Shown one piece after another: positions 40,107 through 55,811 of a stretch of DNA of 59,154 bases. How positions within the stretch are numbered: position 1 is the first letter of the stretch; the number at the start of each line of letters is the position of its first letter. Under the pieces are notes generated by a model. It saw only the letters and a list, made by a program, of their open reading frames with translations. It was not told where the DNA came from and searched no databases. The DNA is taken from assembly GCF_015207035.1 (NCBI RefSeq), contig NZ_JADEXQ010000028.1, positions 1-59,154 on the forward strand, in the 5' to 3' direction. Both the position numbers and the translations under genes were made by a program. Origin of the DNA: Romeriopsis navalis LEGE 11480. GTDB taxonomy: Bacteria > Cyanobacteriota > Cyanobacteriia > Leptolyngbyales > Leptolyngbyaceae.

Positions 40107-41882
40107 ATGATTGCAACAGATTTTTCACAATCACCGTTCTGCCAGCAACTGAGCGATCGCCTCAGTCCCTTGGTACAGCGCCTCTATCCCGATCACGATC
40201 AATCAGCGTTGCTCCAAAAAATCTGTGATGTCGCTTCTCCCCATGCGCGCGATGGATCAACAGTGACCGAAAAGTGGGATGAGCAAACGTTATTTTTGAT
40301 TACCTATGGCGATAGTTTATTAAATCAGGCGACTGGCGAAGCACCGCTGCAAACCCTAGCCGAATTCCTTGAGCAACACCTGCGTGATGTTTTGAGCGTG
40401 GTGCATATTCTGCCGTTTTTCCCCTATAGCTCGGACGATGGGTTCTCGGTCATTGACTATCGTCAAGTCAATCCACGTTTAGGCGATTGGCAAGATATTG
40501 AACGGATTGCCCAAACCTTTGATGTGATGAGTGATTTAGTGATTAATCACGTTTCGAGTCAGTCCGAATGGTTTCAGCAGTTTATCCAACAGCAACTGCC
40601 AGGCCGTGATTACTTCATTACTTGTGATCCAGAAACCGATTGCTCCGCAGTTGTTCGACCGCGCAGTACTCCACTACTCACGCGTGTCCAAACCGTCAAG
40701 GGCTTGCAGCATGTTTGGACCACTTTTAGCCCCGATCAAGTGGATCTGGATTTTCGCAATCCTGCGGTGCTATTGGAATTTATTGATATTGTGCTGGATT
40801 ATTGCCATTATGGCGCGCGGTTTATTCGATTAGATGCCGTCGGGTTTCTATGGAAGCAACTCGGCACTTCCTGTATGCATTTGCCCCAGACCCATGCCGC
40901 GATTCGCTTAATTCGCGAGGTATTGGCGATGACCTATTCGCGCGCGGCGATCGTCACCGAAACAAATGTGCCGAACCGTGAAAATCTCAGTTACTTCGGG
41001 AATCGCAATGAAGCGCATATGATCTACAACTTCAGCTTGCCGCCGCTGTTGTTAAATGCGCTAATTCGAGGTGAAGCACAACACCTCAAGACGTGGATTA
41101 TGAGCATGCCACCGGCGCCGGAAGGCTGTGCTTATTTTAACTTTACGGCTTCCCATGATGGCATTGGCATGCGTCCAGCGGAGGGATTACTGGCCGATAC
41201 GGAGTTAGCCGAGTTATTTGACACGATGCAACAGTTTGGGGGCAAGATTAGCTATCGTCGTCATGGTGATGGGCGGCAAACCCCCTATGAAATTAATATT
41301 TCACTGTTTGATGCCTTACAAGGGACGCTTAAAGGCCCTGATCAATGGCAGCGGCAACGTTTTCTCTGTTCGCAATTAGTCATGCTTTCATTGGAGGGAA
41401 TTCCAGCATTCTACATCCATAGTCTGTTAGCGACGTCGAATGACTACAATCGGGTTCAACAAACCGGACAAAATCGCAGTATCAATCGGCATCAATGGGA
41501 CTATGAACTGTTGCAGCAAAAACTTGCTGATCCAGCCTCTGATCAAGCTTGGATTTTTGGCCAACTGAAGAAATTAATCCAAATTCGGCGGGAACAATCA
41601 GCATTTCATCCAAATGCCACACAATATACCCTTCATCTACACCATCCGGCAATTTTGGGTATGTGGCGTCAGAGCCGCGATCGCGCCCAAAGTATTTTCT
41701 GTCTACATAATTTGAGTGACGCACCACAGTCACTTTTACTTAGCGAGATTAATCTAATTTGCACCGATGAATGGCATGATCTGCTTAGTGGTGAAAAGTT
41801 TTCTGAAGATTGCACGACGATCGAACTTGCACCTTACCAAACCGTTTGGATTACTAATTCCGGGGGAGAAAATCTGTGTTGA
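40107..41882 (+). CDS. GH13_18 sucrose-phosphorylase-like enzyme, probable glucosylglycerate phosphorylase
   Basis: 591 residues. The GH13 catalytic triad is intact: nucleophile Asp243 (FIRLDAVGF), acid/base Glu285 (VTETNVPN) and Asp351 (TASHDGIGMRP). HILPFFPYSSDDGFSVIDYR is the subfamily-18 signature. Subfamily 18 contains sucrose phosphorylases, glucosylglycerol phosphorylases and glucosylglycerate phosphorylases. The context between gpgS and gpgP favours glucosylglycerate plus phosphate to glucose-1-phosphate plus glycerate, which recovers carbon when the solute is no longer needed. Sucrose phosphorylase remains possible. It overlaps gpgP by seven bases and is divergent from gpgS over a 241-base AT-rich gap. 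Cytoplasmic. Confidence 0.85.
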   Translation: MIATDFSQSPFCQQLSDRLSPLVQRLYPDHDQSALLQKICDVASPHARDGSTVTEKWDEQTLFLITYGDSLLNQATGEAPLQTLAEFLEQHLRDVLSVVHILPFFPYSSDDGFSVIDYRQVNPRLGDWQDIERIAQTFDVMSDLVINHVSSQSEWFQQFIQQQLPGRDYFITCDPETDCSAVVRPRSTPLLTRVQTVKGLQHVWTTFSPDQVDLDFRNPAVLLEFIDIVLDYCHYGARFIRLDAVGFLWKQLGTSCMHLPQTHAAIRLIREVLAMTYSRAAIVTETNVPNRENLSYFGNRNEAHMIYNFSLPPLLLNALIRGEAQHLKTWIMSMPPAPEGCAYFNFTASHDGIGMRPAEGLLADTELAELFDTMQQFGGKISYRRHGDGRQTPYEINISLFDALQGTLKGPDQWQRQRFLCSQLVMLSLEGIPAFYIHSLLATSNDYNRVQQTGQNRSINRHQWDYELLQQKLADPASDQAWIFGQLKKLIQIRREQSAFHPNATQYTLHLHHPAILGMWRQSRDRAQSIFCLHNLSDAPQSLLLSEINLICTDEWHDLLSGEKFSEDCTTIELAPYQTVWITNSGGENLC

Positions 41883-42715
41883 TCTGTTTTACCGATCTTG
41901 ATGGCACTTTGTTAAATCACGATGATTATCGCTATGATGCCGCAATCCCGGTAATTCGACAGCTACAAGCTGCCGGGGTGCCCGTGATCCCGACGACGAG
42001 TAAAACCCGAGCAGAAGTAATGGGTTTGAGATCGGCACTGGGGCTCAACGCCCCGTTTATTGTTGAGAATGGCAGTGGGATTTTCTTAGAGCCCAATGAT
42101 CAGCGGTTTCGGTTTACCTATTACGGCGAAGTCGATGGCTTTAAAACGATGCAGTTAGGTGTGAGCTATGCAGAAGCGCGGGCCGGATTAAAGGCCATTG
42201 CGCAGCTAATTGGGGAGCCGTTGTCGGGGTTTAATGATATGACTTTAGCCGAGCTACAAGCATCGACTAACCTATCTTTTAAGGATTTACAGTTAGCTTG
42301 TAATCGCGAGTTTAGTGAGCCCTTTCTGCGGCCCCAAACCGCACTTGATCAACTCGAAACGATCGCGCGACGCAAGCGCTTCAAGATTTTGGTGGGTAAT
42401 CGCTTCTGTCATCTTTTAGGCGCTGGTGCATCCAAAGGTGAGGCGGTAAATCTGATTAAACAAGCGTGGTGTGAAGCAAACCCCGATCGGGTAGGGGATG
42501 TGCTTACCTTGGGCTTAGGTGATAGTCCCAATGACATTTCGATGTTGGATGCGGTGGATATTCCCATCGTGGTACCGGGGGTAAATGGAGCCCATCCCGA
42601 ATTGCGTGGCAGAGCCGGTTATCAGATTGCACCGGCAATGGGTTGCCAAGGATGGGCCGCGGCGGTGACGAAGGTGATGCAGGAAGTTGGCGTCCCAGTG
42701 AAGCTAGCGGTCTAA
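41876..42715 (+). CDS. gpgP: Glucosyl-3-phosphoglycerate (mannosyl-type) phosphatase
   Basis: 279 residues from a GTG at 41876, preceded by GGGGGAG and overlapping the phosphorylase stop. HAD superfamily, MPGP family: motif I CFTDLDGTLL (Asp7 and Asp9), motif II TTSKTRAEV (Thr/Ser 41), and motif IV LGLGDSPNDISMLDAV. The cap segment and FIVENGSGIFL match mannosyl-3-phosphoglycerate phosphatases. It removes phosphate from glucosyl-3-phosphoglycerate, giving glucosylglycerate, so it completes the step after gpgS. Overlap with the phosphorylase gene means that synthesis and breakdown genes share one transcript, which is noteworthy. Confidence 0.9.
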   Translation: MLICFTDLDGTLLNHDDYRYDAAIPVIRQLQAAGVPVIPTTSKTRAEVMGLRSALGLNAPFIVENGSGIFLEPNDQRFRFTYYGEVDGFKTMQLGVSYAEARAGLKAIAQLIGEPLSGFNDMTLAELQASTNLSFKDLQLACNREFSEPFLRPQTALDQLETIARRKRFKILVGNRFCHLLGAGASKGEAVNLIKQAWCEANPDRVGDVLTLGLGDSPNDISMLDAVDIPIVVPGVNGAHPELRGRAGYQIAPAMGCQGWAAAVTKVMQEVGVPVKLAV

Positions 42716-42784: not shown

Positions 42785-45475
42785 TTAATTAACTTTGACT
42801 TCAAAGCGCACATAGCCGTAAGCGTTATTGGGGGTGCCGGGTGCCGTGGCGGCAGGAAGTTCATTATTGGGCGCCGCATCACTGTTGCGGACAATCTGGA
42901 CCGCAACCGCTCCATTGCTGTTAATTCCCGAACAATTCATGCTGGGAATTGCCCCGGGTTGGAAGTATTCGCCGCGATCGCCATCTGGTACGTTGGTTAA
43001 CGCGAATGCCGTGTTGCCAATCACTAGTTCAATGCCAGACATGGCGGAAAACGTTGTGGGTAAAAATGTCGTGTTTGCAGGCACTAAATCACAGAAATTG
43101 ATGTTTTTCGCCGCTGATTTGCCACTGGATAGAAAATAGATTGTGTATTGCAGGACATCATTAGATTTTACTGTACCCGCATTAATCCGCCCCTTGAGGA
43201 ATTCACTCATGACCGTCGAACCATTCGCGCTGTTGGCATTGAGTGGCGTGGGCCAATTCGGATGATTATCTTCAGCTTGTTTACTCGATGTTGTATCGTC
43301 ATCGTAGAAATCGATCGGTTGCCCGTTAATTGCGGTAATGCGTTTGACCAGCAATAACTCTGGAGCTGATGGTTTAATCCCAAAGTCGCGCTCTGTCACG
43401 TCTGCGGTTCCGATATTAAATGTAGCGGTGGCTAATGGACTTGTATTGGTCCAACCGTTGGGTAAAGACGCCGTGGGTGCTGGTTGACCGATCGTCCCGG
43501 CTGTAGGACTTAAACGGATACTCAGATCATTCTGGTTGGATGCCAGTCCTAAGAAGCTATAGGTACCATTGGCCGCAACCGAGGAAGTTGCCAGAACATT
43601 ACCGGATGAATCGACCAAAATCGCATGTAAGCCACCGGCATCAGTACCCACTTCTGCCCCATTTTGAATATTGCTAAATGTGTTGTTTGCACTGTTATCA
43701 ATATCATTCCAGATGGTTCCCGAAATATCCACTGGGCCAATGATATTGAGCTGTGTCGATGACGCTCCACTGGGAAAATAAGTCCAGAGGTCAAGCCCTT
43801 TTGTATCACCAAATGCACCACGGCATTTGGTGTTGGAGTTGCCGCCGCTGGCGCCACCAAATTTGCGTGCGTTGGTTGTCGTATCAAAGCCAAGTATGGG
43901 ATCGCTAAAAGCGGGATTAGGTGGATTGCTCCCGCAAAGCGCATTGGCTAACTTTTCGGCATCGGTATTACCTTTTCCAACTACGGTCCCATTGAGGGTA
44001 CGATAACCGCGATCGTCAAAAAAAGCAGTTGTGTTACCCAGGGGATTTGCCCCGTTGAGCAGTGTAATCGTGGGACCGCCGTAGAAGTTATTCTCACCAT
44101 CAATGAATGGGAAGTGATATTCACCCGCATGGATTTGGACGTTGGCGGGGTAATTGGTGCCAACCGGAAAGTTATTGCCGCTGTTGTCTTGGCCATTCCA
44201 GGTAACGGTTTGAACGCCGTTGGTGATCATTGTGCCGCGCAGCACTCGGTTTAGGGGGTTGGTGGGATCGAAGTTGACGCCATCACGGCTAATGACAATT
44301 TGGTAGTTCCCGCTGACGTTGGTATTGAATTGGAAATTACCGCCTGTCCCTTGGGTAGAGGTATTGCCACTAGCTGTACCCGTAAAGCTCAAACCATTTA
44401 CAGTGGGTACTGTCGGAATCAGCGGAATACCTACTCCATCGAAGCTACCGTCGGCGCGATAGCGCTGAATACTACCCAAAACATCCGGATCGACCGGGTT
44501 CAAAAATGTCGGATATTGTGGATTCGAGAACGATACGCCCCCTTCCGGATTGAGGATTTCAAATCCATCCCCATTCACATCATGATATAGGGGCGTTTTG
44601 CCATCGCTATCGAAGAATCCTACCTGGTTCCCATAGAGCAAAAAGCCATTGGGGTCAGCACCGCGTAGTTCCATCTTGTAACGGAAACCATCGCTCGTCA
44701 CGGGATAAGTGGGGAAATTGAGTGGTCGGCCATTGCCACCAGTGGATAGTGCGTAGTAATAAGCAAATAGGCGGCCATTGCGATCGACCGTTGAAGTCTG
44801 ACTATCACGCACAGTGACATCCCAGGCGGCCACACTCCCTTTCTGTTGGTTGCTAAAGTTATTGCCGCTGCTGAGGGAAATATCACCGGCAACGCTGCCA
44901 TCACGACTGCTATCGAGCCCATCTGTGCCAGTAATGACGACATCATAAATGCCGGTGGAAGGTGCTTGGTAATAGCAAGGGGTATAACCCGTCGGATTAT
45001 TGTTGCCCGTGATCGAATTCGGTCCAGCAAGCTCTTGGGTGCGGCTGGTAATTTGGCCTTGGCCAGAGGGTTGGTCACTACATTTAAAGTCCGGTGTTCC
45101 AGGGATCGTTTCGGCCCCGATCGCCCCACTCACACGGCCAGGATCAAAGATCATGATCTCACCCTTGTTGACATTCATCGCGCTAGAGCCGACCAAGATG
45201 TACTCGTCTTTTTTGGCATAGACTTTGAGCAATGTGCGGCGCAGTACCAGCGAACCGTATTGGTTCGTCCGCCATTCGATATTTGCTCGGTTGCCTGTTG
45301 CGCCAGCCGGGTAAAGCGTGCGACTCCCTTCCGCTTTTGCCGCCGGCGTCCCGCTAGCCAGTAAACAGATGGCCATCAAAATGCCGACACTCCATTTGTT
45401 GCCCTGGACCACTTCAGATTGTGCGGCATGTGATGATTTGAAAGCGCGGGCGAGTTGATGAAGAAATGACTGCAT
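42785..45475 (-). CDS. Large secreted protein with SdrD_B-like and DUF11-like domains
   Basis: 896 residues. Signal peptide (core WSVGILMAICLLASGTPA, cleavage near AKAEG, about residue 49). A long, beta-rich extracellular region rich in Asn, Gly, Ser and Thr follows, with eight or so cysteines in pairs (such as FKCSDQ and PCYYQ). An SdrD_B-like prealbumin domain lies near 590-700 (DISGTIWNDIDNS, DAGGLHAILVDSSGNVLATS), and a DUF11-like domain near 705-896 (PELLLVKRITAINGQ, NVLQYTIYFLSSG-like) ends in YVRFEVKVN. The calcium-like DVNGDGFE motif near 295 may bind a metal. Last gene of the minus-strand surface locus; 78 bases after the beta-helix gene. Exported to the surface or matrix; function unknown. 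Confidence 0.85.
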   Translation of the reverse strand: MQSFLHQLARAFKSSHAAQSEVVQGNKWSVGILMAICLLASGTPAAKAEGSRTLYPAGATGNRANIEWRTNQYGSLVLRRTLLKVYAKKDEYILVGSSAMNVNKGEIMIFDPGRVSGAIGAETIPGTPDFKCSDQPSGQGQITSRTQELAGPNSITGNNNPTGYTPCYYQAPSTGIYDVVITGTDGLDSSRDGSVAGDISLSSGNNFSNQQKGSVAAWDVTVRDSQTSTVDRNGRLFAYYYALSTGGNGRPLNFPTYPVTSDGFRYKMELRGADPNGFLLYGNQVGFFDSDGKTPLYHDVNGDGFEILNPEGGVSFSNPQYPTFLNPVDPDVLGSIQRYRADGSFDGVGIPLIPTVPTVNGLSFTGTASGNTSTQGTGGNFQFNTNVSGNYQIVISRDGVNFDPTNPLNRVLRGTMITNGVQTVTWNGQDNSGNNFPVGTNYPANVQIHAGEYHFPFIDGENNFYGGPTITLLNGANPLGNTTAFFDDRGYRTLNGTVVGKGNTDAEKLANALCGSNPPNPAFSDPILGFDTTTNARKFGGASGGNSNTKCRGAFGDTKGLDLWTYFPSGASSTQLNIIGPVDISGTIWNDIDNSANNTFSNIQNGAEVGTDAGGLHAILVDSSGNVLATSSVAANGTYSFLGLASNQNDLSIRLSPTAGTIGQPAPTASLPNGWTNTSPLATATFNIGTADVTERDFGIKPSAPELLLVKRITAINGQPIDFYDDDTTSSKQAEDNHPNWPTPLNANSANGSTVMSEFLKGRINAGTVKSNDVLQYTIYFLSSGKSAAKNINFCDLVPANTTFLPTTFSAMSGIELVIGNTAFALTNVPDGDRGEYFQPGAIPSMNCSGINSNGAVAVQIVRNSDAAPNNELPAATAPGTPNNAYGYVRFEVKVN

Positions 45476-45552
45476 GGCGTGTCAACGGGTAGACAAACAA
45501 GTGGGATGGGGAATGCGGATGGCCGGTGGGAGCATGAACCGGTCAGTTGTGG

Positions 45553-47064
45553 CTAGTCAATAGCGCGAATCACACTGCTGCGACTGGCTTCGGACGTACC
45601 ATAGTCAGGGTGAGAGACCGTAGCACTAATACGTTCTGTTGCTTTTAGAGTGCCCAAGGTGATTTGGAACTGTCCACGGGCATCAGTGGTGACGGTGTTG
45701 AGTGGTTGGCTCAGGACCGCATGACCGGCCTGATCCGATGTTGTGCGATACAACTCGATCGTTGCATTAGGCATCGCTTTGCCGCGGATCTCGACTGTGC
45801 CATCGAGGCCGATGATAAATTCGCGACTGAGGAACTGTGGCGCGTCAATTCCCCCATTGGCAAAATCCCAATGGCTGGGATAATTCGCGGTGGCTAAATT
45901 GCGACCATCGCCTTGAAAGTAGTGATTGACTCCAACATGACGTTGACTGACGAGATCAACGCTCAAGCCATTTTGCGTTTGAAATCGATTCTGCCGAATT
46001 TGGTTCCGCCGACTCCGGGGATAGGCGGCAATAATTACGCCACTCCCAACTGACTTGATATTATTTTGGCGGACTTCGTGGCCATTGCCCATGAGGTAGA
46101 TCGCGGCGCGTGTGGCAGCCGTATTGCGGATTTTGTTCTGCGCAATAGTGACACGCCCTTGAGGTTTGAACAAATAAATGCCGCTGCCACTGTTGGCGTT
46201 AATCTCGTTGTTCTGGATGTTGGTGCGATCAATATTCCCTTCAAGGCGAATGCCATCGGCCATGCCAAACTGACCATTTTGGTTAATTCGATTGCCGTGA
46301 ATATACAGATTCGTTGCCGTCTTACCGGTAATGATGCCACTGCCTCGCTGCTGGGTAATCCAGTTATCACGAATCTCGATTTGTTGGCCATTGAAGATGT
46401 ATACACCAAAGCCCGATCGGAAAGCATTCGGTAACGGCAGATGTCTGGATGTCCCCAGCCAGTTTTGGGCAATTACGACATCTTGAACAACTTGCTCTGG
46501 CGCATCATTGGTTTCCCATTGGCCGATCACAATATCGCCAGCGGGCTCTTGATAGGTTTGTAGTCCAATATCACCAAAACCCGTGAAACTCAGACCTTTG
46601 ACGGTCACACCACTGGCTTTGATGTGTAAACCGCGCATGATCGGCACATTCGTCGCCGGTGCCAAGCTGATGAGTGGTGTTTGCTGGGAACTTAACTGCG
46701 ATGTGCCATCAATAATTGTGCCGTCCGTCTGAATTGCGGGTAGGGATGTTTGGATGCGAATCTGAGTTTGATCTTGGGGCAAGGCAAATTTGACGTGCGA
46801 TCGCACTTTGCCGTGATACCAATCTTGATCGTTAACGATGATGGAGCGGGTAATTTGCGACTTCTCAGCCCGCGTGAGTTTTTCGTAATTTAAGTCGCCA
46901 TTGGTGAGGGCGATCGCTTCGCGCAATGTGATGACTTGATCTGCTTGAATGTTATCGGCATTGCTGTTCACGGTGATGTTGAGGGGTTCCGCCGCAGGCG
47001 TTTGGGCAGCAGATAAAACCACGGCGCTAGTTGCCAGTAGAGTCAGTTGAATGAGATGACGCAT
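45553..47064 (-). CDS. Secreted right-handed parallel beta-helix protein
   Basis: 503 residues from ATG 47064, which sits one base past the stop of the upstream barrel gene; the open frame runs farther upstream but that part overlaps the barrel gene. Signal peptide LIQLTLLATSAVVLSAAQTP. After ITVNSNADNIQADQVITLRE, a CSLREA-like exported-protein opening, repeated beta-helix turns run from about 170 to 420 (ASGVTVKGLSFTGF, IQNNEINANSGSGIYLF, QIEIRDNWITQQRGSGI), rich in Asn ladders. The C-terminal 90 residues form an Ig-like or carboxypeptidase-regulatory-like domain (GTVEIRGKAMPNATIELYRT). The helix fold is shared by pectate lyases and adhesins; catalytic residues are not evident. Exported. Confidence 0.85.
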   Translation of the reverse strand: MRHLIQLTLLATSAVVLSAAQTPAAEPLNITVNSNADNIQADQVITLREAIALTNGDLNYEKLTRAEKSQITRSIIVNDQDWYHGKVRSHVKFALPQDQTQIRIQTSLPAIQTDGTIIDGTSQLSSQQTPLISLAPATNVPIMRGLHIKASGVTVKGLSFTGFGDIGLQTYQEPAGDIVIGQWETNDAPEQVVQDVVIAQNWLGTSRHLPLPNAFRSGFGVYIFNGQQIEIRDNWITQQRGSGIITGKTATNLYIHGNRINQNGQFGMADGIRLEGNIDRTNIQNNEINANSGSGIYLFKPQGRVTIAQNKIRNTAATRAAIYLMGNGHEVRQNNIKSVGSGVIIAAYPRSRRNQIRQNRFQTQNGLSVDLVSQRHVGVNHYFQGDGRNLATANYPSHWDFANGGIDAPQFLSREFIIGLDGTVEIRGKAMPNATIELYRTTSDQAGHAVLSQPLNTVTTDARGQFQITLGTLKATERISATVSHPDYGTSEASRSSVIRAID

Positions 47065-47065
47065 G

Positions 47066-50000
47066 TTATTTATCCCCCGCTGATTGAACCTGTGATTGCG
47101 CGATTTGCGTCTTTTGGGGAGCAGTGGTGGGTCGCTTTTGCAGCCCAAACCCATTGAATAGTTCATTCACTTTGAGCGTCAAACCGAGATAGGGACCACC
47201 GGCGGAGCGTGAACCACTAAAGTCACGATCGTTAACCCGGCCAAAGGCATAGCCACCGGAGAGTCGCAGGTTGGGTGTAATGTAATATCCGGCTTCGACG
47301 GCAAAGCCCGTTTCGCTAAAATTGGCACTGGGCTGAGCGATCCAGCGAACTTCACCGGAAAGATCCCAGCTATAGTTCAACCGGTAGGTGGCGCGCAACT
47401 GAGTCAAGGTCGCGGTACTAGATCCAACTAAATCTTCAGCGAGGTAGGTGCGACTGTTCCGAAGGGCAAATTTGCCATAGAATTCCCAGCGCCAATCCGG
47501 TGCATAGATTGCTTCGGCCCCGAAGAGGTGTTCAGTCGCCCCTGTGCCACTGGAAAAGAGAATGCTATCCGGTAAGGTCGAAGGATTTTTGCGGTATTCA
47601 TAGCGGAGGAGTGCATTGAACTGATCGTGGCTTGGATCACGGTAAGCTAATCCGAGCTTCAAATTTGCCGTATTACCTAAGTTGATAATGTTTTGATTTG
47701 CCGCACTCGCTTGCTGGAAACTCATCAGACCCGTGAGTGACGGGCTGAGTTTGCCCGTTGCCCCAGCCGAAATTACGGTATTAGTGCCGCTGCCGGAGCT
47801 CCGGTGATCAATCCGGGCGCTCGCTTGGAAATTCGGGCTGTCATTATATTCAATCCCGGCACTAAAACTATCACCGCCCTGAATCCCCAACGCTGAGGCA
47901 GCTTGTCCGGCAGCGAACGGTTGAGAGAACTGCGGGCCAGTTGCAGTTTGATTTTGGAAGCGGCCGAAGACACGTTCGTAGGCTAGATCCATCCGCAAGC
48001 CAGGAGAGAATTGTATGCCTTGTTTAATGCCCAGAGCGCCGTTGCTTGTCCAGCTACCACCATCGCTATACATGCCATAGCGAGCATTCACCGTGGTTTC
48101 AGGGAATAATTGGTATTCGCCACCCACGGCAAGGCTCGTCAGTGATCGTCCCGCTAGTTGACCGCGGGTAAAGAATTGCTGTGCCAGTTGGAGATTCACG
48201 CCCGGCATCAGTTGCCAATCCAGTCCCACGAGGGTGCGATCGGGATAAAATGCATCCGCGCTATTCGATAGCGTTGTTTCATTTTGGGCCACAAACTGGA
48301 GTCGCTTGCTGATTGGCGTCGTGAACCGGGTGCGGAGTTGATCCGAAACGCTGCTGAGGCTAGGGGTAAGACGATCAGTGCGATCGCGGTGAATCCAGTC
48401 AATGCTTAAATCTGATGCGCCAATTTTTTGGGTTATGCCAGCAGTGATTGTCGTTAGGCGATTATCCAGCTGACTGCCTGGTAGCGCTTGTTCCCGTGGC
48501 GTAAATAAATCAACCGGATTGACGAGAATTTGGGGCGCAACACCAAAGTTGTTTTCACGATCAAATTGCACCTTGGCGTTTGTCGTATCGCCTAACTTGG
48601 CATTGACCTGCGCACCATAACGCGTTTGGCCGGGGACGAAGCTGACTGTGGCATTGTTGGCAAAACCCGCATCCGTCGAACGATAAAAAGCGCGGGCTTC
48701 AACTCCCTTAAATAAGGTGCCTTCGGCTTCCACCCGATAGGCACTACCACTCGCTTCACCCTGCAAATCTGCAACATTTTTGGAGCGGGCGTATTCGGCA
48801 ATCAGTGAACCGTTTTTGCCAAGGGCGATATAAGCATCCGCACCAAATAGCTCAAAATTTCTGGCACCGCGATTTTCCTTCCAGTAAGTCCCACCAATCC
48901 AGCTTTCTTGATTCTGCTTGCGTGAGAAATGATACCGGGCACGCGCCGCATAAATCTTGTTATCACTCCCCGGCTCTTCGTATTGATATGTTGTGACAAT
49001 TCGGCGGACTAGCGGGGTGCCGTCCGATTTGACATCGGTGCGGAGAACCGGTTTGCGAAAGAGAATTGTGCCCCGGTCGTAGTCAATTTCATAATCCGCT
49101 CCCCGTTGGAGCTGCTCTCGTTCGATCACGGTACCGGGTCGATCGAGTTCTTCTAGCTCGAAGAAGATACTTTCGCTGCCCTCAGTCATCAGTCGGCGGG
49201 AAACAAAGTAGTAGCCACGTGTTCCATCCGGGGCGATCGTGTCACGCTGAAAACCTTCGACGTTATTGGCGAACAAGCCAGAAACTTGCAGATTCCCGAA
49301 GTTGTAATTCAGCTTCAGGCCATGCAGTTGTCGGGTCAGGCTGGTGAACTGCTGGGATTTACTGGAGAATTCGCCGGTGCGGTAGTCGCCCCACATGCCA
49401 TAGTCAATCACCCCTTTCCCGTTAATATTTTTCGAGCGCTCTAACCGTAGGTAAACGCTATCAATCGACGGTGTAACTCGCTCCGTACTTGAGCCATCGC
49501 CATAGGTGGGATACTGATTCTCACAAACTTGCTTCTCGCCGAAGAGCGGAATGGTACCTTCACAGCTTTGATTAATTGGACGATCGCTATTGTATGCACC
49601 CGTGAATAGCCAGCTCCCGAGTTTACCCGTGGTAAACACCGCGGCATTCGCATCAAGTTGCCACTGGTTATCGCCATCAACGGGCAGAAAGTCGCGCAGT
49701 GACCCATAGAAATTGGTGCCGCGTTTGCCCAGGCGGAGATTAATCACGCCAGTCGCGATCGCGGGGCGAAGATTCGTTTCAAATAGAACTTGGGCAAAGG
49801 ATTCGAGTTGATTCAGTTTGGCCCGGACGTTGACAGTACCGGCAGTGCGACTCGATTGGAGTTTGACCGTGAACTGACCATTCTCGGCTTTGACCTGGAA
49901 ACCGGGTTGGGCCGGACTGGCATCAACGCCGAGAAATTTGCCTTGCTTCGTTGCCAGACTCACGAGCGCCTCTCGGTTCGATCGGTTCCCTTGGGCATCG

Positions 50001-50830
50001 AGCAACTTACCGTAAAGCGTTGCAACGGATCGACCATCCGCTGGAATCCGACTTTCAACCGTCGTCAACTTGAGGGTTTTGATATCACCTCGAACACTGA
50101 CCTGGGCGACATCGCGACTCACAACTTGATCGTTTAGCGTTGCGGTGGCCGTGATTTGGTTCTCCCCTTCATTTAGGGTCACGCCATACCAGGTCTGTCG
50201 GACGCGCTTGTTTTTGCGATCCTGCTCAATCCGGCCAATTAATTTCGGATCAATGGTCTGCCCATTGACTTCCAGTTTCAGAAATGTCCCCTCGGGGTAA
50301 ACAACCGTAACGGTGGCTGCTGGTGTACTTAAAACCTCCCCCAGCTTCGGGGTGATAATTTTGACGCTATCCGCAGCAGACGCATTTGTCTGACTACCCG
50401 GAGCGGTTACGGTTGGAGCAATGGTGGCTGGAGTCGGGCGTTGCGGTTCGACGGTTGGTTTAATCCTTGGTTCAACGCCGATCGACGGCTTCGCGCTCAT
50501 TACAGGAACGCCTGTCGGTAAACTGGGGGTGGCTATAACAGTTTTGCCTAATTTCGTAGCAGTTGCTTTGATGCCGCTGGCTGTCTGGGTCAGGCCGTCT
50601 GTGGCAGTCGGTGTTGTGACGGCGGCGATCGTCGTGGGTGATAATTCATCCCCACTGGCCTGTCGATCTGAAGATTCCGGGGCAGTTACGGTGACCGTTG
50701 CCGTCGTCACATCTGATGTCTCAGTTGCTGCTTGCGCTGGCAAGGCCGTGAGCATGCAGCCCGTTATCTGAAGTAGGATTGCCGTACCGAGCAGGCTTGG
50801 TTGAAATTTCAATTGATTGTGTTGTGTCAT
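47066..50830 (-). CDS. Large outer-membrane-type protein: Ig-like domains plus beta-barrel
   Basis: 1254 residues. Signal peptide (LLGTAILLQITGCMLTALPA, AQAAT). A Pro/Thr-rich spacer (35-150) leads to two Ig-like domains (155-245 with NEGENQITATATLND; 245-350, Big_1-like, with SRIPADGRSVATLYGKLLDA). From about 350 to 1230 it is built from alternating beta strands with aromatic ends (FELEELDRPGTVIEREQLQR, YGMYSDGGSWTSNGALGIKQ), as in a large beta-barrel, with many Tyr/Trp/Phe at strand ends. The last strands (PYLGLTLKVNELF) are followed by a Gln/Thr-rich tail of about 25 residues. No TonB box or plug recognised. Its start overlaps the stop of the upstream DUF11 gene (ATGA). Probably the outer-membrane component of the locus. 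Confidence 0.82.
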   Translation of the reverse strand: MTQHNQLKFQPSLLGTAILLQITGCMLTALPAQAATETSDVTTATVTVTAPESSDRQASGDELSPTTIAAVTTPTATDGLTQTASGIKATATKLGKTVIATPSLPTGVPVMSAKPSIGVEPRIKPTVEPQRPTPATIAPTVTAPGSQTNASAADSVKIITPKLGEVLSTPAATVTVVYPEGTFLKLEVNGQTIDPKLIGRIEQDRKNKRVRQTWYGVTLNEGENQITATATLNDQVVSRDVAQVSVRGDIKTLKLTTVESRIPADGRSVATLYGKLLDAQGNRSNREALVSLATKQGKFLGVDASPAQPGFQVKAENGQFTVKLQSSRTAGTVNVRAKLNQLESFAQVLFETNLRPAIATGVINLRLGKRGTNFYGSLRDFLPVDGDNQWQLDANAAVFTTGKLGSWLFTGAYNSDRPINQSCEGTIPLFGEKQVCENQYPTYGDGSSTERVTPSIDSVYLRLERSKNINGKGVIDYGMWGDYRTGEFSSKSQQFTSLTRQLHGLKLNYNFGNLQVSGLFANNVEGFQRDTIAPDGTRGYYFVSRRLMTEGSESIFFELEELDRPGTVIEREQLQRGADYEIDYDRGTILFRKPVLRTDVKSDGTPLVRRIVTTYQYEEPGSDNKIYAARARYHFSRKQNQESWIGGTYWKENRGARNFELFGADAYIALGKNGSLIAEYARSKNVADLQGEASGSAYRVEAEGTLFKGVEARAFYRSTDAGFANNATVSFVPGQTRYGAQVNAKLGDTTNAKVQFDRENNFGVAPQILVNPVDLFTPREQALPGSQLDNRLTTITAGITQKIGASDLSIDWIHRDRTDRLTPSLSSVSDQLRTRFTTPISKRLQFVAQNETTLSNSADAFYPDRTLVGLDWQLMPGVNLQLAQQFFTRGQLAGRSLTSLAVGGEYQLFPETTVNARYGMYSDGGSWTSNGALGIKQGIQFSPGLRMDLAYERVFGRFQNQTATGPQFSQPFAAGQAASALGIQGGDSFSAGIEYNDSPNFQASARIDHRSSGSGTNTVISAGATGKLSPSLTGLMSFQQASAANQNIINLGNTANLKLGLAYRDPSHDQFNALLRYEYRKNPSTLPDSILFSSGTGATEHLFGAEAIYAPDWRWEFYGKFALRNSRTYLAEDLVGSSTATLTQLRATYRLNYSWDLSGEVRWIAQPSANFSETGFAVEAGYYITPNLRLSGGYAFGRVNDRDFSGSRSAGGPYLGLTLKVNELFNGFGLQKRPTTAPQKTQIAQSQVQSAGDK

Positions 50831-52425
50831 TTCGCCCCCCGGCTAGTTGCATTCTGAGCAACAGGTGTGACGGCAAAATTCATCCGGGCCAAACCACTGG
50901 GAGCGAGATGAATTAAACGTGACTGACTATTGCGTTCTTTAAATTTTTGGTTGGGGGCAAGGGTATAACCGGGAATGCTGCTGAGATCCAGCACGCCCGA
51001 GCGATATCCGGGTAAGACATTTGCAACGGAGAAGAGGCCGTTCTCATCTGTCGTAATACGATTACCGTCTTCGAGAAAGACAACGGCATTGGGGATACCG
51101 GGTTCGCCACGTTGTTGTTCACCATCGAAATTTTTATCAACAAAGACGCGACCCAGAATTGTGCCGCAGTCCGCGATGACGCCGGGCCGGACGAGCAACT
51201 GGTGGGCCGATGGACCATCTTGGATGGCTTGACCATTGTCGGTGCGGCGGGCAGAGACAACGGCAATATTCCGACCACTGCCCCGCATTGCATCTGGAGT
51301 GAGAGTGGCCGCATAGGCCACATTCAATGTGGGGGTCTGATCAATCGATGCTGCGGGCAGATTCGAACCGGGTAATCCAATCAGGACACTCCGACCTTGC
51401 TGTTGTACAGAAACCGGAATTGATTGACCTTGAAATTCCGCTTTAACCGAATTGGGTTGGAACTGAAAGCCGTTGGGGAATTGGTCGCTCAGCAGGAGGT
51501 TATTCACCGCCGCACTGGAGAGATTGCGGACCGAGAGCCGATAAACAACGGTATCGCCGGGGGCAGCCACGGCACGATCGGCAGATTTCACCACCTGAAT
51601 CTCTTGGGCTTGGCAGATACTGGACTGTAAATCCAGGGCAGTTAACGTTAATTTTGTGGTGGCCGCATCGTTAACCTGAACACTACCCGTAACACTTTCT
51701 TCAATGCTATCGCCACTGATTGGTCGACCATCAACTGAGCTGGCAGTGTAGGTTACTAATCCACCATTGCGTGAATTAATGACAATCCGAATACGCCGCT
51801 GACTATAAATTGATTGACTGGGTGGATTAATCACCAAGATATAGGCGCGACCGACATCCAGTTGTCCTTTAGCAGGATCAAGGAGGAAGTTATAAACCCC
51901 ATCGCCCCGTTCTGCCAAGAAATAGGGGTTGGCATTCGTCGAGTTGGGTGCGAGCCCGGCCGAGATGCCATTCCCTTGAATATCTGGCAACTCCGTTGTG
52001 GTTAGCGATACGAGTGAGCCAATTCCTGCCCCTGTTGGGTCGCTTGGATCAGCATTGTAGATTGCAATATTAAACCCAGCATAGTTATCTAAAATCTCAC
52101 CCCGACAGCCAACAATCCGGCCTAAGGGGTCAATCAGCTCACTCTCAAAAGTTGTGGAAATTTCCCCCGTCAAGCCAACGTAGCTCGGTGGCTCACTGGT
52201 ATAACCAGTTTGCTGTTCTGTCTCATAAACGTAGGCAGCCTGATTTTTGATTTGGCGCTGATTTCCTGCCACCTGATTAGGCGCAACTTGGGCGATCGCC
52301 GATGTCGCCTGGAGCAAATTGCTGCCAGCACTGACCAGCAACAGAAGCAGGACAGTCGTATTCCGCCCGACAGTTTGAATGTTTGTTGGACGGCTCAAGC
52401 GCCGCCGCTGCTGATGCACTATCAT
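50827..52425 (-). CDS. Secreted DUF11/SdrD_B protein
   Basis: 532 residues. Signal peptide core TTVLLLLLVSAGSNLLQA, cleavage near SAIAQ. A beta-rich N-terminal half (45-265) ends before a DUF11 domain (about 265-400: QVVKSADRAVAAPGDTVVY, then SVRNLSSAAVNNLLLSDQFP). The C-terminus (about 415-520) is a SdrD_B/CNA_B-like domain with RVFVDKNFDGEQQRGEPGIP and FLEDGNRITTDENGLFSVAN, which in Gram-positive stalk proteins forms rigid repeats. Overlaps the barrel gene by four bases, so the two are translationally coupled. Exported; likely a partner of the barrel protein. Confidence 0.87.
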   Translation of the reverse strand: MIVHQQRRRLSRPTNIQTVGRNTTVLLLLLVSAGSNLLQATSAIAQVAPNQVAGNQRQIKNQAAYVYETEQQTGYTSEPPSYVGLTGEISTTFESELIDPLGRIVGCRGEILDNYAGFNIAIYNADPSDPTGAGIGSLVSLTTTELPDIQGNGISAGLAPNSTNANPYFLAERGDGVYNFLLDPAKGQLDVGRAYILVINPPSQSIYSQRRIRIVINSRNGGLVTYTASSVDGRPISGDSIEESVTGSVQVNDAATTKLTLTALDLQSSICQAQEIQVVKSADRAVAAPGDTVVYRLSVRNLSSAAVNNLLLSDQFPNGFQFQPNSVKAEFQGQSIPVSVQQQGRSVLIGLPGSNLPAASIDQTPTLNVAYAATLTPDAMRGSGRNIAVVSARRTDNGQAIQDGPSAHQLLVRPGVIADCGTILGRVFVDKNFDGEQQRGEPGIPNAVVFLEDGNRITTDENGLFSVANVLPGYRSGVLDLSSIPGYTLAPNQKFKERNSQSRLIHLAPSGLARMNFAVTPVAQNATSRGAK

Positions 52426-52575
52426 CGATCGCTGCCTAAAAAAAGTTGTTATGAGCTGTCGCAGGCGGGGGGAAATAGCCGGAGCTAGCGAAGGGGAATC
52501 AGTAAAGCCATGAGGCGATAGCGTTTACTGCGCTAAGAATTGGGGAATTTAGGGGATGTTTTGGGATGCTTTGGG

Positions 52576-52609
52576 GAACGACCTTTGCTGGGAAAAGCAA
52601 AAGTCGTTC
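52576..52609 (-). promoter_or_regulatory. 14-bp hairpin between two genes of the DUF11 locus
   Basis: Arms 52576-52589 and 52596-52609 pair with a single mismatch around GGGAAA in the gap between the 181-residue gene and the next DUF11 gene. There is no T tract after it on the minus strand. It may protect the upstream message or cause partial termination, giving more of the upstream gene products than of the downstream ones. Confidence 0.6.
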
Positions 52610-52635
52610 TAGGTCACTTAAATTGTCAGGTGTGA

Positions 52636-53181
52636 CTAATTAACTTTGACTTGGTAAGCCACGTTGACGTCCTGATTGGCGGCAATCTTCTGATCAAACT
52701 GCCATTTCACGTGGGTGTAGGCTTTCGCGGGTGCCGGCTGTGTTTCAAATTTGCCATCAGTTAATTTGACCCTGACGGTGGGGTTTGCCACAAAAGTTTT
52801 ACCGCCATCGATACTGAACGTAGCCTGCGTCCCTTCACCAGTTGCGGTTTTCAAAACGTAAACGGTACCTTGAGGCACAGGCTGGGTCAAAGCTAATTTA
52901 CGCGCACCCGCTTTACCTTGGTTTTTACCAGAGAGGCGATAGCGAATGACATCACCCGGTTTAGCGGCATCAAGGGGTTTCCAGGAAACTTCTTCCTGGC
53001 CAGTTGTACTGCTTGCAACCACTTTCTTCTCTCCCACTAATTGGAGGCGAATATTGGGCTTTTGGGAGCTGTCGGCGATCGCCGAACCACCATTACCCAG
53101 TGCCGATGAGAGCGTGACTCCGGCGACTGGTACTGCGACTAGCATTAGCGCGCTCAAACCCAACATCAATGAACGTTTCAT
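52636..53181 (-). CDS. Small secreted DUF11-like protein
   Basis: 181 residues. Signal peptide (SLMLGLSALMLVAVPVAG), with the mature protein beginning near residue 30-36. The rest is one DUF11-like beta domain: LQLVGEKKVVASST, then AAKPGDVIRYRLSGKNQGKA (the DUF11 phrase for gap between strands), PVPQGTVYVLKTATG, and an end of NVAYQVKVN. Similar to short cyanobacterial DUF11 proteins of unknown function. It lies 125 bases behind the 834-residue gene and 210 before the next one. Confidence 0.85.
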   Translation of the reverse strand: MKRSLMLGLSALMLVAVPVAGVTLSSALGNGGSAIADSSQKPNIRLQLVGEKKVVASSTTGQEEVSWKPLDAAKPGDVIRYRLSGKNQGKAGARKLALTQPVPQGTVYVLKTATGEGTQATFSIDGGKTFVANPTVRVKLTDGKFETQPAPAKAYTHVKWQFDQKIAANQDVNVAYQVKVN

Positions 53182-53230
53182 AATTGAATTTCCTGTTTCT
53201 ACGACTTAACTGACGGAATATTTGGGGAGG

Positions 53231-53299
53231 AATGGTTTCAATGATTAAGGCCAATCAATCCTGGCACTCGCCTCACCGAAACCATTCAGAACCGTGAGG
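53231..53299 (-). promoter_or_regulatory. Interlocking inverted repeats between DUF11 genes
   Basis: AATGGTTTC (53231-53239) pairs with GAAACCATT (53278-53286), while CCTCAC (53271-53276) pairs with GTGAGG (53294-53299). The second stem's loop contains an arm of the first, so the two folds would form a pseudoknot or exclude each other. They lie in the 125-base gap before the 181-residue gene. This is the architecture of a switch or attenuator, but function is inferred. Confidence 0.4.
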
Positions 53300-53306
53300 T
53301 TACGGT

Positions 53307-55811
53307 TTAGTTCACCTTGCGACGGAAGACGAAGTCACCTTGCGCCTGGGGTTGAATCACCACGCCCGGCGTATGCTCATACTTCGCGACGTCAGCGGCT
53401 TTCGTGGTACCCGCTTGTTCACCGGCGGGGAAGTACTGTGTTGTCCCGAAAGTCGCTGTGACACTATTCATTACGTGGCTTGTGGTAATTTCACCGGCGA
53501 TTTCCGCAGCCCAAGTATTAGTTGCAGTATCACCATCCTCCGTAATTACCGTATTCCGTGCGTTTAGGGTAATGTTGCCAGTACCGACCGGCGCAATGGA
53601 GACGTTCTTGTAGGTAATCTTGTATTCAATGAAGCGACCGTTCGTCATTGCTGCATTTAACAAGTTACTGTCATTCGTAAATGGCTGCACTTCCGTGGAA
53701 CCATCGGTATCGATAATCCGGGCTAACTTTGTGAGTTTTAGGAAGCCGGTATAAACTCGATCGATTGTCCGGTTTTGAGTGGGTTCATCAACGATTGAGT
53801 CCGGACGCGAATCGCCATCGTTATCTTTAAAGATGTAGATGGGAATTGAAAATCCTTCCTCAGTATCGGTCGAAAGCGGTGTATTGATTGGCAAGTCCAC
53901 CTTAACGGTGTAATCAACAACCTGATTGGGGGCCAAGGTCGGGATGATGATATTGGTGCCAGAGTCGAAGATAAAGTTTGTGCCATTAAACTTATAGACT
54001 GCTGTATTGCCACCATAAGTTAGCGTGACCAGCGTATCCGTTGGTGGGAGTGTCTCTCCGGGGCCAGCGGTAAAGTTTGCCGCATCTGGCACCAACAGTA
54101 GATTGGTCAATGTATCCGTGGTGCTGGGGTTCGAGATGGTATTTGTAAATGTGACTTCCGCTGGATCGATGGTTGAACCCGGTGCGGTATTGGCTGGGAC
54201 TAACGCGCCACGATTCGTAAAGTCATCATTATTATTATTCGGACCAACGGCACCCGGTGTGCTGGCGGGGCCATTCAGGACTTGACCAGGAGCAGCGATC
54301 GTCACGACATTATCTTCACCACCAGGGCCAGAACCATCGTTTTGGTTGGTATTATCAACACCATCATTCGTTGGGTCTGAAACACCATTTGGAATAGTTG
54401 GCGCACCGGGTGTGAGGCTGCTAGTCGGCCCCGGAGTACCATTGTCATTGAAGTTTGTGGGACTTTGGTCACCCGATTCATCATAGATTAGCGGCGCCGT
54501 AGGACCCTCATTTCCTTGAGTCTGACCAAAGACCTGAGCAATGTTGGTAATATTTGTCGGGGCGGTTCCAGTGATGCCACTAGTTACAACGGTGAAGTTG
54601 AAGCCATTAACAGTTTCACCCTCATTAATCGGCGTTGTCGTTGCATCGTAGATAAAACCAACACGAGTAACCGGATTTGTCAGAGTTGCGGGGTTAGTCA
54701 CCCAAGTTGCTTGGGTTGCATCTGTACTGGTTGCGACATCGGTGTATACCGGCGTCCAATTGGCATTCGCAGCGGTGGCAGAGTTTGGCACATAAGCTGT
54801 GAGTGCGGGGATTGCATCGGCAATCAAGACGCGATTGACCGTACCGCCATCAACATTAATCGCCGTACCGACTAACTTACCAGCGGTAACGCCAACACTA
54901 CCAGCGGGCGGATTTGATTCAACGCGCAACGCTAAGTTATAAGTAATCTGGTCGTCCGTCAGGATGCTTGGTGTGCCATTGCTATTGATCGGCGTGCTAT
55001 GTGTCTTGAGCAGAGTGGCGAGGGCGATCGCTTCCGAACCCACAGTTAGCGGTGCGGAAGCACTGGCTTCCTTCTCTTGTGCTACGGCCCCTTGACTTTC
55101 ACCTAAACCACCATCAGCTGCATCTTTAGTCGAAACGTCATTCGGACCATTATTATTTGGCTGGTTTTGGGTGCCTGGCGTATTATCGTTCGCACCGGTA
55201 TCACCTAACTGTACAGTGACGTTGGAACCAGAACTGGCCAAGCCGTCAATTTTGACGGGGACGCTGACAATGTAGGAATAACCCGCTGGTAAAACACCCG
55301 CTGGATGGGTACCAGCAGCGTTAGTAATGGCTGGAAGGCCGAGGGTATCAGTCGCCGCATTTGCAGTAACGTCAACTGGTGCAAACGTAGTGCGATTCCC
55401 CTGCGGATCGATAAAGCCAACAATTTGAATATTTTTTGTGCTATCTTGCGTCGCTGGACCACTGACTGTGGCATCCCTTGGCACGTTGATTGCGGTTGTA
55501 TCGTTACCGCTGTTCGTGACTTTAAATTCGAAGTTGACATCATCATTCGGCAAGACTGAACCACCGTTGACATCCACCGTAGAGAGGGATGTGACAAATA
55601 AGCCAGCCACCTCTTGAACCGTAACGGTGACTTCATTCGATGTGGCATCAAAGGTTGTGCCATCGTCATCTTCGTAAGTCGCGGTCGCCGTGTTCTTAAT
55701 TTCAGTTCCCGCAGGTGTTGAGAATACCGGTGCGGCGAGGATAAAAGATGAACCAACAGCTAAGGTTGCAGCTAGATAACGTTGGTATTTGGAACGAAAT
55801 TTGATGGTCAT
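53307..55811 (-). CDS. Large secreted DUF11-repeat protein, first gene of the surface locus
   Basis: 834 residues from ATG 55811; the open frame extends upstream, but the lysine-led signal MTIKFRSKYQRYLAATLAV supports this start. The signal ends near FSTPAG. The mature protein opens with GTEIKNTATATYEDDDGT, the usual beginning of DUF11 proteins that hold a domain-repeat array, and then has four or so DUF11-type beta domains separated by Asn/Gly/Thr-rich stretches (for example SGNDTTAINVPRDATVSGP; PGSTIDPAEVTFTNTISNPS). It ends GDFVFRRKVN. Asp-rich DNDGDSRPDS near residue 680 could bind calcium. Exported; no membrane anchor is visible. Confidence 0.85.
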   Translation of the reverse strand: MTIKFRSKYQRYLAATLAVGSSFILAAPVFSTPAGTEIKNTATATYEDDDGTTFDATSNEVTVTVQEVAGLFVTSLSTVDVNGGSVLPNDDVNFEFKVTNSGNDTTAINVPRDATVSGPATQDSTKNIQIVGFIDPQGNRTTFAPVDVTANAATDTLGLPAITNAAGTHPAGVLPAGYSYIVSVPVKIDGLASSGSNVTVQLGDTGANDNTPGTQNQPNNNGPNDVSTKDAADGGLGESQGAVAQEKEASASAPLTVGSEAIALATLLKTHSTPINSNGTPSILTDDQITYNLALRVESNPPAGSVGVTAGKLVGTAINVDGGTVNRVLIADAIPALTAYVPNSATAANANWTPVYTDVATSTDATQATWVTNPATLTNPVTRVGFIYDATTTPINEGETVNGFNFTVVTSGITGTAPTNITNIAQVFGQTQGNEGPTAPLIYDESGDQSPTNFNDNGTPGPTSSLTPGAPTIPNGVSDPTNDGVDNTNQNDGSGPGGEDNVVTIAAPGQVLNGPASTPGAVGPNNNNDDFTNRGALVPANTAPGSTIDPAEVTFTNTISNPSTTDTLTNLLLVPDAANFTAGPGETLPPTDTLVTLTYGGNTAVYKFNGTNFIFDSGTNIIIPTLAPNQVVDYTVKVDLPINTPLSTDTEEGFSIPIYIFKDNDGDSRPDSIVDEPTQNRTIDRVYTGFLKLTKLARIIDTDGSTEVQPFTNDSNLLNAAMTNGRFIEYKITYKNVSIAPVGTGNITLNARNTVITEDGDTATNTWAAEIAGEITTSHVMNSVTATFGTTQYFPAGEQAGTTKAADVAKYEHTPGVVIQPQAQGDFVFRRKVN

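Follow-up and report, generated by a model that had tools for sequence, protein, structure and literature searches.

The window, the whole 59,154-nucleotide stretch of Romeriopsis navalis LEGE 11480 DNA that was analysed, contains six adjacent open reading frames on the minus strand at 42785-55811, designated g1 to g6 in order of transcription (Table 1). The first-pass annotation had placed six neighbouring minus-strand genes here, and their positions were reproduced exactly when the open reading frames were re-checked, as were the two tight junctions it had noted, the ATGA overlap of g3 with g4 and the one-base gap at 47065. Sec-like N-termini were recognised by inspection in g1 through g6, in agreement with the signal peptides previously assigned to all six. 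DUF11-type repeats were identified by Pfam and NCBIfam searches in g2, g3 and g6, and SdrD_B in g3 and weakly in g6. No DUF11 was detectable in g1 by these searches, and since g1 is a DUF7925 protein the number of proteins with detectable DUF11 or SdrD domains is three rather than the four originally counted. The parallel beta-helix attributed to g5 was recovered as a right-handed beta-helix (E 8.8e-16), and the protein described as having two Ig-like domains and a barrel was g4, with Big_1/Invasin_D3-like Ig domains and a predicted barrel.

Table 1 Positions of the six genes and their principal features in the window
Feature	Position	Strand	Description
g1	53307..55811	-	834 aa, signal peptide, DUF7925; presumed secreted passenger; ends ...DFVFRRKVN
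g1 DUF7925 domain, residues 264-454	54450..55022	-	PF25546, E 6.6e-61
g2	52636..53181	-	181 aa, signal peptide, single DUF11; presumed small passenger; ends ...AYQVKVN
g3	50827..52425	-	532 aa, DUF11 (residues 276-396) and SdrD_B-like (426-498); presumed periplasmic barrel adaptor
g3 stop / g4 start ATGA overlap	50827..50830	-	4 bases
g4	47066..50830	-	1254 aa; predicted giant outer-membrane beta-barrel and two Ig-like domains, presumed periplasmic
g4 Ig-like domains (Big_1/invasin D3-like), residues 157-352	49775..50362	-	Pfam and structure matches
g4 predicted transmembrane barrel, residues 358-1220	47171..49759	-	~38-40 strands; AF2 model
g4 small beta insert, residues 526-604	49019..49255	-	plug candidate; AF2 model; conserved across phyla
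g5	45553..47064	-	503 aa, right-handed beta-helix; optional component
g6	42785..45475	-	896 aa; N-terminal part variable; SdrD_B-like and DUF11 region; presumed to be the main passenger
g6 C-terminal domain, residues 701-896	42785..43375	-	Ig-like sandwich; candidate sorting or attachment domain

Promoter and terminator scans gave signals that were not above chance. The PHROGs search was empty and no phage record matched g4, so nothing indicates a phage element. An ITGC sequence in the g4 signal peptide (window 50830-50700) fits a lipobox ahead of the normal AQA cleavage site, and lipidation of g4 at this lipobox-like site is possible. Convergent to the locus is an alpha-amylase-type, sucrose-phosphorylase-like gene with a 7-base overlap with a HAD phosphatase gene, a pair that looks like a small sugar-solute operon (window 40107-42715).

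Conservation of the gene set

Searches for paralogous loci in the genome of the window located three further copies on other contigs, two with the order g1-g2-g3-g4-g6 and one with g3-g4-g6. The g6 protein of the latter (C23) has seven to eight DUF11-type units, whereas few are detectable in the g6 of the window. Relatives of g4 were present in 45 of 58 related genomes and DUF7925, the domain of g1, in 29 of the 58. Forty neighbourhoods from related genomes had either a long layout, g1-g2-g3-g4-(g5)-g6, or a short layout, g3-g4-g5-g6. A scan of GTDB genomes gave 389 g4 relatives, and the 80 of these that were examined were all cyanobacterial (Nostoc, Calothrix, Fischerella, Leptolyngbya and others); the long layout was seen in nearly all of them. 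The gene set noted at the single locus co-occurs both in the three paralogous loci and in most of approximately 110 cyanobacterial loci, where the gene order is the same. Genes g1 to g4 were together in 94 of 113 distinct loci and the 4-base overlap of g3 and g4 was retained in 83, while g5 was absent from many loci and g6 was in some not beside the barrel.

Co-occurrence was tested in a phylum-wide sample of 107 genomes, searched with one alignment for the barrel (A2) and another for the g6 C-terminal domain (A4). The barrel was found in 14 of the 107 and the g6 domain in the identical 14, with either one alone in none, these genomes and the 58 related ones being phylogenetically non-independent. 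Within genus g50 one genome had both and two had neither, which indicates that the barrel and the g6 domain come and go together. The two were also concordant in 56 of the 58 related genomes; of the discordant cases, G034 is a 69% complete genome with its g4 on a contig of 3.8 kb and G036 is a weak partial match. Distance matrices of the loci correlated between g3 and g4 (r 0.90) and between g4 and the g6 domain (r 0.71), values that include shared species descent and are as would be expected for parts inherited together. The six-gene arrangement is far beyond chance, and the set is solidly conserved and linked.

Two genomic settings were noticed from genes recognised by eye. Short-layout loci in several genomes were downstream of an apparent DUF3007-like gene and an apparent trpA (L077:4092-5392 and L080:12225-13586, the second also with ndhL), a position that looks like a fixed chromosomal site. 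Many Nostocales loci (for instance at L096:1919-3580) were divergent beside an apparent threonine synthase gene and a MoaD/ThiS-like gene.

Relatives of g4 were also identified by tblastn against plasmids in Thermus, Deinococcus, Acinetobacter, Sinorhizobium, Roseovarius, Eleftheria, Devosia, Vibrio and others. A DUF11 or SdrD protein was located directly upstream of the barrel in most of the plasmid relatives inspected, the Vibrio record being unannotated. A profile of six Thermus, Deinococcus and proteobacterial barrels was aligned by hhalign with the cyanobacterial g4 profile over 964 columns (E 6.1e-70), and these proteins can be assigned to a g4-type barrel family, whose members resemble one another along the whole profile and have a g3-like partner either fused to the barrel or encoded immediately upstream. 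Plasmids pTT27 of Thermus thermophilus and pDFI1 of Deinococcus ficus carry counterparts of g1, g2, g3, g4 and g6, arranged almost as in the cyanobacterial loci, and a D. ficus beta-helix protein matches g5. Relatives of g2 were found in both Thermus and Deinococcus, and TTHA1873 (PDB 7wwn) was among the fold matches, with no sequence relation to the Thermus g2-like protein tested. In Acinetobacter a single 2008-residue protein (L162:9133-15159) consists of g3 fused to g4 and is followed, in the g5 position, by an OmpA-family gene. In alphaproteobacteria the barrel is preceded by a giant DUF11 protein (3362 to 4306 aa) with a g3-like part near its C-terminus. The proteobacterial g4 relatives terminate in ...GKF or ...AKF, a C-terminal Phe being usual in outer-membrane barrels, and some Thermus and Deinococcus passengers end like the cyanobacterial ones, for example FRVKIN. 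The gene set is real, ancient and conserved, with related sets in Thermus, Deinococcus and Proteobacteria.

The predicted barrel and its presumed passengers

An AlphaFold2 model of moderate confidence covering residues 157-1244 of g4 (pLDDT 75.8, pTM 0.59) placed two Ig domains ahead of approximately 39 long strands and predicted an outer-membrane barrel, as had been supposed from the sequence. The predicted number of barrel strands is about 38 (38 to 40 if closed with both ends periplasmic), with both count and closure uncertain. Inserted after the first seven or so strands of the model is a beta domain of approximately 80 residues; no other part of g4 is as well conserved as this insert (residues 526-604), which by its size and place is a plug candidate. 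Foldseek and VIA-align matched the model to the outer-membrane barrels SlpA, SprA, FimD ushers and LptD, all partial matches that do not establish homology. A PDB sequence search with the g4 profile returned just Ig-type domains of glycosidases and intimin, and the barrel therefore rests on structure prediction. The Ig region matched 6qud (Z 15.6) and intimin D0-D1 (6tpl, Z 12.4, rmsd 2.3 over 94) by structure, and these domains would be on the periplasmic side of the membrane.

A terminal beta-strand motif, basic or polar, hydrophobic, then N/K/R, was present in 92 of 105 g1, 90 of 94 g2 and 76 of 91 g6 proteins. The same motif ended one of 118 g3, none of 126 g4 and none of 39 g5 proteins, and 11 of 620 other ORFs. 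The products of g1, g2 and g6 are presumed on this basis to be passengers. Those of g3 and g5 more closely resemble components of a periplasmic machine than proteins displayed at the surface, g3 because in Acinetobacter it forms one protein with the barrel and g5 because its homologues often end in a peptidoglycan-binding OmpA domain (E 3.4e-16 in the one scanned, others by eye). An OmpA domain is also present in the N-terminal part of the Eleftheria barrel, which together with the g5 homologues suggests that a peptidoglycan tether recurs; the window's own g5 has no OmpA domain. The earlier view of the DUF11 set as surface products is narrowed at g3 and g5, and g1 belongs with DUF7925 instead of DUF11.

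Proteins of the g6 type with a full C-terminal domain were between 284 (partial ORFs) and 2203 residues long and differed in their N-terminal parts, having in common a C-terminal domain of approximately 190 residues. In 105 of 106 full-length matches this domain ended no more than two residues from the C-terminus. Its model (pLDDT 90.1, pTM 0.88) was a complete Ig-like sandwich in which the final strand closes the fold, nearest in structure to the D2 domains of sortase pilins (CppA, 5xcc, Z 9.0, rmsd 2.9, 115 residues), and a PDB sequence search with the domain gave chance matches only. The g6 C-terminal domain was matched by g2 in hhalign (97%), and for the g1 C-terminus the comparison did not support the same domain (probability 12%). 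A reading of g6 as a donor-strand pilin was rejected as the one Ig domain modelled is predicted to be complete.

All four g6-domain copies in the genome of the window are at barrel loci. In the single-contig genomes G013 and G022 one g6-domain gene is more than 1.5 Mb from the sole barrel locus, even if measured around a circle, and in one genome a g1-g2-g6 set without g3 or g4 (L177:6483-12433) is accompanied by barrel loci elsewhere. The domain looks like a sorting or attachment signal, since it is common to g6 proteins of very different length and is found on genes unlinked to a barrel. The C-terminal strand is, however, also the one that completes a normal Ig fold, and in the passengers it may be structural instead of a signal.

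Stand-alone g6-domain genes with no barrel locus adjoining were observed at L173:7183-9189, L174:6895-9000, L175:7127-9145, L179:2837-4714 and L181:2148-4082, and such genes are candidate remote passengers. DUF7925 was likewise seen in a 2110-residue ORF with no barrel adjoining (G005:C1:2062500-2080500; L178:7157-13489).

Proposed export and display at the outer membrane

The first-pass annotation had suggested that the barrel protein exports or anchors the DUF11 proteins. This agrees with the gene order of the operon, the terminal strand or domain shared by the passengers, the fusion of g3 to g4 and the perfect co-occurrence of the parts. These features, like the breadth of the family, were observed directly, and we infer the direction of transport, the attachment and the final structure of the product as follows. 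All six proteins would cross the inner membrane by Sec. The g4 protein would form an outer-membrane barrel of some 38 strands, its two Ig domains lying in the periplasm and its small insert being plug-like, and g3, with its DUF11 and SdrD_B domains, would dock on the periplasmic side as an adaptor or gate, while g5, where it bears OmpA, would tie the assembly to peptidoglycan. The C-terminal strand or domain of g1, g2 and g6 would be recognised by g3 or g4, and these proteins would then leave the cell and remain bound to it, making up a coat or fibres of Ig-like domains, with g4 acting as both channel and anchor. Unlinked carriers of the g6 domain would be further passengers of g4. No ATPase or TonB-type partner is encoded in the operon, and no energy source is visible there. 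Export would thus have to be powered by proteins folding or assembling once outside, as happens with ushers. We put the chance that the locus encodes such an outer-membrane export-and-display system on a giant barrel at about even.

The main rival is that g4 is an SlpA-like connector without export, serving as an anchor or large porin like SlpA/OmpM, and that the DUF11 proteins and the beta-helix form a periplasmic scaffold between the outer membrane and peptidoglycan. SlpA (30 strands) was among the top Foldseek matches, with a VIA Z of 13.6 over 392 residues, and the recurrence of OmpA domains in the g5 homologues and on the Eleftheria barrel would suit a connector. Passengers of up to 2203 aa, and of 3362-4306 aa in the alphaproteobacterial relatives, are however long for a periplasmic scaffold, g4 has neither an SLH domain nor a coiled coil, and the presence of the C-terminal domain on unlinked genes is more in keeping with a sorting signal. 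We consider such a connector unlikely.

It is less plausible that the passengers are secreted by another route and that g4 only holds them at the surface, receptor-like, in the way of an S-layer anchor. That they have signal peptides of their own and that one genome has the g1-g2-g6 set of L177 without g3 or g4 would both be in keeping with a mere holder, but the same genome has barrel loci elsewhere and a gated pore would require just such a conserved insert of plug size; this account is improbable. DUF11 and Ig domains are common and spread easily, and ordinary neighbouring surface genes could share them with no joint function. Such an explanation is contradicted by the perfect co-occurrence in 107 genomes, by the conserved order with the overlap kept in most loci and by the g3-g4 fusion, and we regard it as highly improbable.

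Few routes for large surface proteins are known in cyanobacteria, which rely on proteins of this kind for their sheaths, mats and motility slime. Should g4 prove to be a translocon, the secretion system would span deep-branching and proteobacterial diderms and would account for many genes annotated as hypothetical, DUF11 or TonB-dependent receptor, and the C-terminal tag would allow passengers to be picked out in any genome. It would also become a testable question how closure is maintained in a barrel with some 38 strands.

Comparison with known systems

The locus resembles the type IX secretion system (T9SS) of Bacteroidota in having a giant barrel, a C-terminal signal domain and an OmpA-type part, SprA being a weak structural match to g4. 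In the T9SS the giant barrel SprA has 36 strands, passengers have a signal peptide and a conserved C-terminal domain, and PorE has an OmpA-family peptidoglycan-binding part (PMC7192894). No SprA_N was detected in g4 by Pfam at E values up to 1, no SprA was among the PDB sequence matches, TIGR04183 was on none of the six proteins and no GldL/GldM or other T9SS motor gene was within the operon. The g6 C-terminal domain is also larger, at about 190 residues, and is not TIGR04183-like. A genome search for SprA_N (PF14349) was silent, as were its controls, and so carries no weight. A marginal TIGR04183 match (23.8 bits) was noted elsewhere, at G000:C93:4583-4786, a T9SS being unexpected in a cyanobacterium.

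The insert predicted in g4 after the first barrel strands has the size and place of an usher plug, chaperone-usher systems are similar in Ig-like passengers and in needing no ATPase, and usher chains were among the top VIA matches of the g4 model (FimD, 9fx8, Z 15.1, 336 residues). The g4 barrel differs in its predicted 38 or so strands, compared with 24 in ushers; PF00577 (Usher) had no match in g4 at E values up to 1; the operon includes no pilus chaperone; and the passenger Ig domain, in the model of one g6 domain (pLDDT 90), is complete with no missing strand. A true chaperone-usher usher is present in the genome at G000:C22:50803-52410 (PF00577, E 3.2e-24) and is its only usher match.

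A very large single-chain barrel and peptidoglycan tethering within the system are features in common with SlpA/OmpM, although in Pfam searches g4 had Ig domains in place of an N-terminal SLH domain or coiled coil. A paper on SlpA lists another three barrels of D. radiodurans, predicted to have 38 strands and given no function (PMC9388160), which may be relatives of the g4 family. The g6 C-terminal domain folds like the D2 (CnaB) domain of sortase pilins, but g6 ends at the last strand without an LPXTG tail and the cell is Gram-negative. Strings of DUF11 Ig-like domains form grappling-hook filaments in GhpA of Aureispira (5,898 aa) and GhlA of Litorilinea (6,596 aa), which in the available portion of that report are single giant proteins with no barrel partner named (PMC13319060), while here smaller passengers go with a dedicated barrel. 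By analogy, these filaments would favour a surface fibre as the product. A DUF11-repeat protein of Methanothermobacter has been implicated in aggregation, which its authors credit to another part of the protein (PMC6759345).

The gene set was described nowhere in the open-licence literature searched (DUF11, cyanobacterial, outer-membrane, Deinococcus, SdrD and T9SS topics), consistent with the initial impression that no named system has it. As it fails the tested defining features of each known system that it resembles, the gene system is set apart from those systems and, as far as searched, undescribed. We consider it somewhat short of an even chance that it represents a separate diderm secretion and surface-assembly system, unrelated by sequence to T9SS or ushers and distributed from cyanobacteria and Thermus/Deinococcus to Proteobacteria, in which a translocon of about 38 strands, a DUF11-SdrD adaptor either fused to it or encoded next to it, and a peptidoglycan tether would serve linked and unlinked passengers bearing a C-terminal Ig-like sorting domain.
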